Below are positions 8,956 through 52,849 of a stretch of DNA of 64,000 nucleotides, in pieces. Numbering within the stretch: the stretch's first letter is position 1; every line of letters starts with the position of its first letter. The translations under genes were made by a program, and so were the position numbers. The notes under the pieces were generated by a model. It did no database searches and was not told the DNA's origin. It worked only from the letters and a program-made list of their open reading frames with translations. This DNA is from Anoxybacillus amylolyticus (GTDB taxonomy: Bacteria > Bacillota > Bacilli > Bacillales > Anoxybacillaceae): NCBI RefSeq assembly GCF_001634285.1, contig NZ_CP015438.1:2616001-2680000 (forward strand), written 5' to 3'.

Positions 8956-9100
8956 AAGAAAAGCATAAAACAAAAAAGACCGGGTGTTACAAACACCCGG
9001 TCAGCGCAACTACATGCCACAAGAAGAGCGGCAAGCCTTTAAGTGCGATTGAAATAACCGTCACACCTTTGGCCTAGGGGGGGACGGTTATTTCTTTTTT
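8956..9100 (+). ncRNA. Antisense antitoxin RNA of a type I toxin-antitoxin pair
   Basis: An RNA of about 145 nt is bounded by the TTGAAT/TATAAT promoter and a perfect 12-bp terminator stem (GAAATAACCGTC, 9051-9062, with 9083-9094) followed by six T. It overlaps the last 13 bases of the toxin ORF and the whole toxin 3' UTR in the opposite direction. This is the convergent layout of txpA/RatA and bsrG/SR4. The ends are inferred from signals only. Confidence 0.7.
8972..9002 (-). terminator. Terminator of the toxin mRNA
   Basis: GACCGGGTG pairs with CACCCGGTC around a 7-nt loop, followed on the minus strand by six T. It lies inside the antitoxin RNA, so the two transcripts share more than 100 nt of complementarity. 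Confidence 0.85.
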
Positions 9101-9192
9101 ATATACACGACCATCGTGATAATCATTGTTAGCGTTCCTATTAGCACTAAACTAAATTGAGCAACTAAGCTTAATGCTTCATACGTCGTCAT
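9088..9192 (-). CDS. Holin-like type I toxin peptide (TxpA/BsrG-like)
   Basis: 34 residues beginning MTTYEALSLVAQFSL, with one membrane helix (LVLIGTLTMIITMVVYI) and a KKK tail. This is the pattern of the Bacillus 'putative holin-like toxin' family, which depolarises or disturbs the membrane when not silenced by its antisense RNA. GGAGGTGG precedes the ATG. Promoter, terminator and antitoxin signals are all present, so the locus looks functional. It lies just outside the sigK element, not inside it as in the Bacillus subtilis skin. Confidence 0.82.
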   Translation of the reverse strand: MTTYEALSLVAQFSLVLIGTLTMIITMVVYIKKK

Positions 9193-9258
9193 TTTTTCCA
9201 CCTCCCTCCATCGGGAAGTGGCCAACCGCCCACCCTGCTTATGTAGCTGCTTACCGTG

Positions 9259-49406: not shown

Positions 49407-50888
49407 CTAGAAGGCCGGTGAATTAATGGGGCATAGACTTCCCTCATGTCGAATTTTGGAGACCATTCTCCCCGCCATTTGGCGCCAAAGGACGGGAGGA
49501 CGAGCAGGACTTCCTGCTCCAAATTCCGTTTTTGCGCACGCCAAAGAGCCGGTCCCCCCTCGTTTTTTTCGAAACCGGCACAATCGCTTCAGATTTTGCA
49601 CGACGGCGGTCAACAGCGCCTGTTCTTCCATGGCGTCCAGGCCCCGGCTTCGGGCCCGGTCCAGCCCATGACATTCCTTCCCTTCGGCGAACACATGCTC
49701 ACAACGCGTGCGAAGGGCTTGAATAGATCGATAACCGCCCTGTTGCTGAATGAGCCTCGCTTGGTTGCGAATCTGAACTTCTCGGACTTTCGCCTGGCGT
49801 TGTGCTTCCTGAGCGGGATCCTTCGCCCGGCGCTTCCAGGTTGGAATCTCCTCCATCTCCTTGCGGCGCAGCGACACGAGCGGCGTAATGCCTTGGGCGA
49901 AGAGCGCTTCCAAATACTCCGTGGTGCCATATGCTTTGTCCGCGGACAAGGTCCGGATCGTGATCGACGGGTGGCGGAATCGAATCGAAGCCAGCTGCTC
50001 CAAACTCGTCTCCCGTTCCGCCGTTCCGGTGGCCACGCTCGCTTTTCGAGATAAAATGACGCGTGACCGGACATCGATGACATCGTGCACCAAATACCGA
50101 GGATACGCTTCCTGCCCTTTGCCTTTCTTGTACAACCGAGCATCCGGATCCGTCACGCTTCGATGGGTTTGATTGGAAAACGTGGTTCCACGGAAGTTTC
50201 CTCGTTCTTCGGCATGGGCGCGCTCTCCTGATTGGGGAGACGGAGAAGGCGGATCGTCATCGGGATCCCGGTCAGCCTCCGGGGACTCGGTCTGTTCATC
50301 TTCCCGAGCGGTGCGGGCCAGGTAGTCTTCCAACGTTTCCACCGGAGCGAGCTTGATCTCCCGCAAGCTGTGGATCGAAGCATTCGCCCGCACTTGGGTG
50401 CCATCAGCCGCCGCATGGACATCCGGAGAGACCAGCCCCGCCGCGATGCACTGGTCCACCACGTAGGTCATCAGCCGATCAAAGATTCCGTGTTGACGCC
50501 AGCGTTTCCGTGTTTTCACGAGCGTCGTTCGATCCGGAAGCGTGGGATGATGCGGGTCGGGATGGAGCACGGATTCAAAGTCAAGACCGCAAAACCACAG
50601 GTATCCGGCATGCATCGGGAGGATCTCATACAACTCCCGCTCGGAGTGATCAAACAAATACGAGAGCAGCATCAGGCGAAGCAGCCGTTCCGGATCCGCC
50701 GCCGGGCGACCCGTTTTTTCCGTGTACAGGGGAGCCACCCAATCGTGAATGACGGAAAAGTCAACCGCTTCGTTGATTTGGCGCAGGATATGATGTGGGG
50801 GAACCAGGTCCTCCATGTCGATGACTTGAAACAACCGAGGCTGGGTCGAAGGGTTTTTGGGGGCTTTCATGATCCATTCACGCTCCAT
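49407..50888 (-). CDS. IS1182-family transposase
   Basis: 493 residues. N-terminal DUF772-type domain (GRPAADPERLLRLMLLSYL), DDE domain with AAADGTQVRANAS and TLSADKAYGT, C-terminal RCEHVFAEGKECHGL. The stop codon TAG lies in the flanking CTAG, so it is supplied by the target site. Probably intact. Confidence 0.9.
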   Translation of the reverse strand: MEREWIMKAPKNPSTQPRLFQVIDMEDLVPPHHILRQINEAVDFSVIHDWVAPLYTEKTGRPAADPERLLRLMLLSYLFDHSERELYEILPMHAGYLWFCGLDFESVLHPDPHHPTLPDRTTLVKTRKRWRQHGIFDRLMTYVVDQCIAAGLVSPDVHAAADGTQVRANASIHSLREIKLAPVETLEDYLARTAREDEQTESPEADRDPDDDPPSPSPQSGERAHAEERGNFRGTTFSNQTHRSVTDPDARLYKKGKGQEAYPRYLVHDVIDVRSRVILSRKASVATGTAERETSLEQLASIRFRHPSITIRTLSADKAYGTTEYLEALFAQGITPLVSLRRKEMEEIPTWKRRAKDPAQEAQRQAKVREVQIRNQARLIQQQGGYRSIQALRTRCEHVFAEGKECHGLDRARSRGLDAMEEQALLTAVVQNLKRLCRFRKKRGGTGSLACAKTEFGAGSPARPPVLWRQMAGRMVSKIRHEGSLCPINSPAF

Positions 50889-51616: not shown

Positions 51617-52849
51617 TTATTGAAAAGTACCATATACAGAAGAGAGAGTTGTCAATTGTCTAGTGCCTCGCCAAAGAGCCGAATATAATGAGTCTTTTGT
51701 AGCAGCATCATCGCTTTCTCTATAGGGAGCCCAATTGAGATAATCGGCATTCCAAACATAAGTGTATGAGTTATTGGTATCTTTAAATCCAGGGATAAAT
51801 GGACTGCTTTCGGTATCTTTAGTTAGATTACCACTTGAGCAAGTTGTTCCGATCACATCTACATTGAAAAATGCATCCTTAAATAAGTACTGTAAATTTG
51901 CAAATTATTTGTTTTGCACATTAGCTAATTATTTCAGATTGGAATATACTTACAAAATCAGAAGCACGGGCTTTACATGGAGTGGCGGACATGTTAGGCT
52001 AGTTGCCTAGCGAAACAAGGGCTCCTGCTCGCCCCTTTCGCTAGAAAACATGTCCACAGAGGCTCCATGTCAAGCCACCAAAATGTTTTTCTGTAAACAG
52101 AAGGGAGGAAATTTGCACAATACTCCAGATTTTTGCTGGATTAACGCGCAAAAACCCGTTTGAATTTGCAAAAAAATGGCCATTTTGTTCCGGAATAACG
52201 TGCTAATTTACATAAGTACTGCCCATCAATTCTCCACCAGGTACCTTCTATTGATACAGGATGTTTAAAGTAGGACAATCCCGAGTTCTTATATTCGTCT
52301 AGGATGACACGTAATTTTTGTGTTGCCTCTGTTATACCGCCTACCACGTAATAATCAGTTCTTGTTTGATCGATTCTACCAACAGTTGTACACCCCGCTG
52401 CACACGCTTTTAGGGGCTATAAAGTTTTTGAGCTTATCCGTAAAGGATAGTTCCAAGCCTTGATTGGTAGGCATTTTATAGTACTTAAATTCAACTTTTG
52501 TAATGATTTTAATATTATCGTTAATCTGTTGTTCTTTTGTTAAATCTTCTCCGAATTCCTGAATTAGTTTCTTACCGTAATCAGTAGTGTATAATGCATC
52601 CTTTACAAGAAATGCGCCCTCTGGGAGTTCAAGATTTCTATCTTTACTCTCTACAACTTGGATTGGCTCGTTCGGTAACTTATTTTTCATCTTTAACTCT
52701 TCATACTCTTGTTTTGTCAACAAAATCTTCACTTGATTGTCGGGAGATAGGTTATCAGTAGTTGGATGACTTTGGTTAGCTAAAGCACTCCATGGTAATA
52801 CTGTAGTTAATAAAAAACTTACAAGAATGAAAGACATCTTTTTGAACAT
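51617..52849 (-). pseudogene. Secreted protein of about 300 aa, frameshifted and split by a MITE-like element
   Basis: Begins with a signal peptide (MFKKMSFILVSFLLTTVLPW, cut after SALA). A one-base excess in the A run at 52408-52411 breaks the frame after NFIAPK; the right frame continues with ACAAGCTTVGRIDQTRTDYY to RIDGQYL, where a 320-bp insertion follows; it resumes at FKDAFFNVDVIGTTC and ends VYGTFQ. Restoring both lesions gives one continuous protein with paired cysteines. I do not recognise the family. Confidence 0.8.
51892..52211. mobile_element. 320-bp MITE-like element with nested hairpins
   Basis: Ends GTAAATTTGC and inverted GTAAATTAGC; flanked by the 9-bp direct repeat ATAAGTACT (51883-51891, 52212-52220). 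Deleting it restores the reading frame ...DGQYL/FKDAF of the secreted-protein gene. It has no coding capacity. Its centre holds stacked inverted repeats: CATGGAG/CTCCATG, GGACATGTT/AACATGTCC and CTAGCGAAA/TTTCGCTAG. Confidence 0.8.

Follow-up and report, generated by a model that had tools for sequence, protein, structure and literature searches.

Rolling-circle plasmids, phages and integrative and conjugative elements (ICEs) are known to carry single-strand origins, and in many rolling-circle plasmids the origin adopts a fold that RNA polymerase recognises as a promoter (PMC4595007). RNA-polymerase dependence has been described for ssoA and ssoU (PMC5703833), and the folded strand of Frpo carries −35 and −10 boxes spaced as in a promoter (PMC11541004). 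Among ICEs, ICEBs1 possesses sso1, which is similar to the pTA1060-type sso (PMC4595007), and sso916 of Tn916 maps between orf19 and ardA (PMC9632896) and serves the priming of second-strand synthesis (PMC9154091). In our searches of open-licence literature, we recognised no description of single-strand origins on insertion sequences (ISs). Here, we analysed a stretch of 64,000 nucleotides of the Anoxybacillus amylolyticus genome (NZ_CP015438.1, positions 2,616,001 to 2,680,000; hereafter the window), in which a gene-less mobile element, a miniature inverted-repeat transposable element (MITE) of 322 bp, lies at 51891–52212 on the plus strand. In its centre, a 108-nt hairpin (the core; 51969–52076, plus strand) forms a module separate from the MITE ends. 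We propose, with somewhat better than even confidence, that this core serves insertion sequences as a single-strand origin of the RNA-polymerase type. Judged from its sequence, the whole element is a non-autonomous transposon with ends derived from a DUF6431/rve/AAA transposon and, in its centre, a captured accessory module common to many insertion sequences.

The core consists of an outer stem, an asymmetric bulge (G / AGAG), a covarying inner stem and a three-way junction with two small hairpins; its 3' arm (52058–52076, plus strand) holds the conserved unpaired AGAG and CTCCATGTCAAG. The z-score of its folding is −6.3 as RNA and −6.0 as DNA, and the 320 bp around it also fold far beyond chance (z of −5.2 for the plus strand and −6.9 for the minus strand). 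In an alignment of 24 core sequences, 29 pairs were recovered with 91.2% of the cells paired, compared with 30.7–43.3% in slid controls. Double changes were found at 14 of these pairs vs. 8.5 in shuffles (4 out of 500 shuffles reached 14) and in 62 cells vs. 19.3, with a covariation score of 0.324 vs. 0.160, and none of the 500 shuffles attained either of these last two values. Covariation and the DNA fold together describe a conserved folded single strand, as an origin of this type should possess.

On this strand, the near-invariant columns of the 5' arm are TTKACA and TGNTA[GA][GC]CT, in the layout TTKACA-17-TGNTAGSCT. In the window, the −35-like box TTTACA is located in the outer stem (51972–51977, plus strand) and the extended −10-like box TGTTAGGCT follows at 17 nt (51992–52000, plus strand), beginning with the final pair of the inner stem, where the stem opens. 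We then counted this layout in 94 distinct cores (from loci L091–L210), collected with a search pattern that fixed the outer arms, and hence the −35 box, and left the −10 box and the spacing free. TTKACA followed by TAnnnT at 15–18 nt was present on the plus strand of 91 cores, the spacing being 17 in 78 of them, 16 in 5, 15 in 5 and 18 in 3; the −10 form was absent in the other 3. Moreover, TG precedes the −10-like box in 80 of the 94 cores. On the minus strand, the layout was found in 7 cores and never with TG, and shuffled interiors gave it in 5.3% of cases, or 0.3% with TGN. Promoter boxes within the fold and on one strand only are what an origin calls for, although the −10 consensus is weak. 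The core resembles in this respect ssoA, ssoU and Frpo/ssi, in which boxes placed as in a promoter are also carried by a folded strand, a comparison that is one of description and not of sequence. A terminator, also considered for the core, was rejected, no terminator-like site being found in 51850–52250.

We investigated the distribution of the core by several searches. Within the family, BLAST matches to the core came from 26 of the 41 genomes, at 71–100% identity, some of them covering short stretches only. A covariance model gave hits in 149 of the 397 genomes sampled from the order, representing 81 out of 135 genera; in a sample of 398 genomes from the phylum, 27 had one. When named genome contigs were scanned with a pattern, at least 117 stretches were returned. 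The genome that harbours the window contains four further matches (C3:41746, C1:2433382, C1:2201691 and C2:39171); the last is weak (29 bits) and the first (locus L236) sits in an element of a different type. The phage collection gave zero matches and the plasmid collection 2 records at an E-value of 1e-5 and 12 at an E-value of 10.

The core occurs in elements with unrelated ends, beside IS3, IS256, IS110, ISL3 and ISLre2 transposases. Carriers with different ends include IS21-like TG..CA types (L024, L042, L010 and L057, labelled by their ends) and others (L003, L026), and at two loci (L046, L054) the core directly follows IS3-type transposase genes. From 138 distinct cores, we retained 73 different open reading frames (ORFs) of at least 130 aa whose 3' end faces a core within 300 nt. 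Among the neighbour families listed (25 out of 103, many of the families being ordinary host proteins, so that single members of further transposase families may exist), we found rve (15, with rve_2 in 12 and HTH_21 in 9), Transposase_mut (2), ISL3 (2), UPF0236 (1), which we take to be ISLre2, IstB (1) and reverse transcriptase (2). The rve neighbours are mostly IS3-type, possibly with pieces of the IS21 protein IstA among them. A link with group II introns was judged incidental, as only 2 of the 73 neighbours match RVT_1.

Within 120 nt of IS3-type neighbours, the core is in the sense of the transposase in 18 out of 19 cases (families assigned by reading protein tails, the script label having caught 13; several are close copies). 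Beside IS256-type neighbours, assigned in the same way, it is antisense in 8 cases and sense in 1 (L097); L003 was left out of this count, its neighbouring IS256-type gene appearing to be interrupted by the element. An IS110 element of the set described above, confirmed by Pfam (L234), carries the core antisense, about 25 nt from the transposase stop, and in its genome (G205), where nine core matches were scored, both IS110 loci opened (L234, L235) are antisense. Like the bridge RNA or seekRNA of IS110/IS1111 elements, the core is a structured non-coding part of an insertion sequence; in contrast, it is also found in DDE elements, and in G205 it is an additional feature beside an IS110 transposase.

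IS3 elements have an optional slot between the transposase stop and the right end, which the core can occupy. We read the 3' side of 30 loci at which one IS3 transposase has a match. The core was present in 8 of them, 9–223 nt beyond the end of the matched protein, and 5 others contained the motif CCAAACGAAGTGCGGTAG within 2 mismatches. The remaining 17 had neither. By reading, 5 of these 17 (L248, L254, L255, L262, L267) have a looser CAAGCG..GCGCGG-like motif after a hairpin, 2 (L249, L250) have another long hairpin with neither core nor sso916-like motif, and 7 (L243, L244, L246, L247, L259, L263, L265) reach the right end within 9–75 nt; of the last three, one is ambiguous (L268) and two are truncated or off target (L266, L269). 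Core-bearing IS3 elements are longer by about 160–180 nt than close relatives without the core.

The motif that occupies this slot in relatives is also found in the sso916 region. A 21-nt stretch of this other hairpin (from L257) is present, unannotated, in 141 plasmid records; in the two of these that were opened (L298, L299), the stretch is located between ardA and an orf19-like gene that itself follows mobT. A known-origin motif and the core thus share the same slot in different relatives. We screened 150 genomes for a 19-nt form of the motif with at most 1 mismatch and obtained 22 sites in 10 genomes, the reversed-pattern control giving 0. By reading, all 22 sites are followed by an IS3-type right-end sequence (shortened in L320), and 17 have a transposase-like ORF 62–164 nt upstream in sense orientation. 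Among the other five, three (L305, L313, L321) are cut by contig ends and two (L311, L320) have no transposase-like ORF. As a side observation, these sites (L300–L321) and the five loci with the looser motif (L248, L254, L255, L262, L267) form a family of sso916-like hairpins, with CCAAACGAAGTGCGGTAG or looser forms of it, between the transposase stop and the right end. Like sso916 and sso1, the core is a non-coding hairpin carried by mobile elements of Bacillota, and a motif from the sso916 region occupies the IS3 slot that the core fills in relatives. However, no sequence common to the core and the sso916 region was seen, and the core, a candidate origin by its sequence, is carried by insertion sequences and MITEs.

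The limits of the window MITE were set by comparing copies in the genus. Its ends are TG..CA, with full end sequences TGTAAATT and AATTTACA, and its terminal arms (51891–51909, plus strand; 52194–52212, minus strand) are 84% complementary. It is flanked by a 7-bp target duplication, TAAGTAC, at 51884–51890 and 52213–52219. The first-pass annotation had described a gene-less mobile element of 320 bp with short terminal repeats, nested inverted repeats in its centre and a 9-bp duplication. The element, both kinds of repeat and the duplication are real, and the two lengths are corrected to 322 and 7 bp. ATAAGTACT is indeed present on both sides of the MITE, the apparent 9-bp repeat arising from the 7-bp duplication plus two coinciding bases, the first and last of the element. 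No ORF of at least 60 aa lies wholly inside. The search for further copies proposed in that annotation brought the full-length copies in the genus to eight, of similar length, and five of these have a perfect 7-bp duplication of their own, which reads CGAGAAG (L005), ACATTTT (L006), GAACTGT (L007) and TTAATGG (L011) at copies other than that of the window; the three others (L012, L017, L022) lack a matching duplication.

A larger element with the same ends was also found, as the first-pass annotation had suggested looking for; the absence of further copies and of related ends, named there as grounds for refutation, is contradicted by both finds. A degenerate terminal-repeat pattern (at most 2 mismatches) had matches in 31 of the 41 family genomes, the reversed-pattern control giving 4 sites. 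One locus (L230, 2656–5756; 3101 bp) has such terminal repeats, TG..CA ends, a rve/Mu-transpos_C frame and an AAA_22 frame, and a DUF6431 frame was identified in a related locus (L228). Read inward, the right end of the MITE is identical to the left end of L230 at 45 of 51 positions. The L230 copy has broken frames and no flanking duplication, and no intact copy was seen in this search. The likely parent of the MITE is this 3.1-kb DUF6431/rve/AAA transposon. We take the class of MITEs with TG..CA ends to belong with Mu/Tn7-like or IS21-like DDE elements. The window MITE resembles this class in having no genes, terminal inverted repeats, a target duplication, several copies and a larger element with matching ends, but the parent-type loci searched gave no match for its centre, which is nevertheless common to unrelated elements.

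The figure-eight of IS3 and IS256 elements becomes a double-stranded circle by host replication (PMC7780238, PMC3299598). In IS2, the right inverted repeat (IRR) is the exclusive donor (PMC3299598), which would imply that the transposase-sense strand is the one circularised, and in nearly all IS3 cases read, both the core and the sso916-type module lie on that strand. In IS256, either end can be the donor (PMC7780238), and the core is found there in both orientations. This agreement leads us to propose the core as a folded single-strand promoter priming the complementary strand. Once a transposon strand is single-stranded, for example displaced or circularised during copy-out transposition, its folding would place the −35 box in a duplex and the −10 box at a junction that is already open. 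The RNA polymerase of the host would then bind the folded core and make a short primer, whose extension by DNA polymerase would turn the strand into double-stranded DNA, presumably to the benefit of transposition. The carriers of the core include the copy-out elements IS3 and IS256, while the parent type of the window MITE is a rve + AAA element and the core also occurs in an IS110 context; the idea that it is restricted to copy-out families was therefore dropped. In the window, a different single-stranded stage (a replication gap, conjugative entry or transformation) may be the one at which the core acts, or it may ride as a passenger.

Several observations weigh against an origin of this kind. 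The core is weak as a double-stranded promoter: TAGGCT has 3 of the 6 bases of TATAAT and a standard promoter scan was silent. The conserved TGGAG/CTCCA and the AGAG bulge are unexplained by promoter rules. With the covariance model, no core was found in eight loci with similar ends (L223, L225–L230 and L237, of which L228 and L230 are parent-type), so the centre of the MITE was probably acquired separately; moreover, we know of no work establishing the rve + AAA parent type as a copy-out family. The plasmid origins of pTA1060 and pTA1040 are not homologous to the core, the best score over 1200 bases (L238 and L239) being 6.2 bits with an E-value of 0.57. For the sso916-type motif, the 21-nt plasmid match alone has an E-value of 0.6, and the weight therefore rests on its position. 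One IS3 neighbour is antisense (L273). Finally, for some plasmid-borne cores no transposase is annotated in the vicinity (L004, and L323 with a recombinase gene about 250 nt away); being on mobilizable or conjugative plasmids, they are possibly plasmid single-strand origins.

A structured RNA, as the first-pass annotation had suggested, is a possible but not the best-supported reading. The core would then be the 3' end of transposase messages, as a stabiliser, regulator or guide, and be carried along in MITEs. In the main IS3 cluster, 18 of the 20 upstream sense genes end 2–33 nt before the core (the other two at 105 and 248 nt), and the strong covariation of the stems would suit an RNA. Some plus-strand excess of G.T over A.C in the stems, as RNA would show, also counts against the origin: 107 vs. 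41 in the inner stem of a cruder set of 140 cores, and more modestly 53 vs. 30 in the 138 distinct cores. Without one conserved T.G pair, the latter asymmetry falls to 37 vs. 29, which is low for RNA by an expectation that is uncalibrated, and a folded DNA strand would allow a modest excess as well. Furthermore, the core is antisense to the transposase in 8 of the 9 IS256-type cases and in both IS110 loci opened. At the gathering score, no Rfam match was obtained for the core of the window and 10 loci, and a relaxed threshold gave only weak, chance-level ones. A structured RNA predicts neither the promoter layout nor a slot common with an sso-type motif. We consider it rather unlikely, and favour an origin acting at the DNA level because of the promoter geometry, the occurrence in both orientations and the slot shared with a known type of single-strand origin.

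The presence of the same core in unrelated elements with different flanks, and its optional character among close IS3 relatives, could also be those of a hyperparasitic hairpin, which would be mobile, have a recombination function (as a folded site for some enzyme) and insert into insertion sequences. The additional 160–180 nt or so in IS3 elements, however, include flanks beyond the stem and do not correspond to a clean hairpin insertion, and no recurrent recombinase family besides transposases appears among the 25 of 103 neighbour families listed, which makes this explanation improbable. If the core were simply a promoter acting as double-stranded DNA, or an insulator, close to the IS end, reading for instance across the circle junction into the transposase, the promoter-like boxes and the sense orientation at the IS3 right end would be accounted for. 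Such a function would not need covarying stems, the consensus is weak, and the direction is reversed in IS110 and in most of the IS256-type cases; we regard it as very improbable. As for a simple deleted IS that folds by chance, the ends do match a larger transposon, yet the covariation and the spread across element types leave it virtually no credit, and the independent distribution of the module already refutes it. The earlier remark that a deleted IS would not usually fold so strongly was justified, the centre being a conserved module that recurs with unrelated ends.

In the window, the MITE interrupts a host gene that starts with a signal-peptide-like stretch at 52849 (minus strand) and whose left piece has no Pfam match. 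By ORF arithmetic, the frames on either side differ by 329 bp, i.e. the element plus the duplication, and no stop interrupts the left piece before the junction; the reading frame therefore continues across the removed element. The restoration of an open frame claimed in the first-pass annotation holds to this extent, but near 52348–52376 the same gene has a separate break, a stop or frame change that is not connected with the MITE. About 1 kb from the MITE, an ORF of 493 aa (49407–50888, minus strand) resembles an IS1182/IS5-type transposase. Elsewhere in the window, Rfam matches the type I toxin-antitoxin RNA BsrG (RF01412) at 8979–9249 (minus strand). At another locus (L002, 780–1110), a segment of about 160 bp is, by eye, tandemly repeated beside IS remnants.

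To our knowledge, the cis-acting start of figure-eight-to-circle synthesis has not been defined. Copy-out transposition is used by a majority of bacterial IS families (PMC7780238). If the proposed reading is true, an origin inside IS elements would supply this missing part of copy-out transposition. It would also explain conserved hairpins beside transposase genes and tie the biology of insertion sequences to that of rolling-circle plasmids and ICEs. More broadly, and with chances that we put at about even, IS families may carry interchangeable single-strand-origin cassettes, one being the new RNA-polymerase-type core and another related to sso916, which would convert the single-stranded DNA of transposition to double-stranded DNA, MITEs having kept the cassette since it helped their copying. 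A neglected step of copy-out transposition would then be a selected and swappable function.
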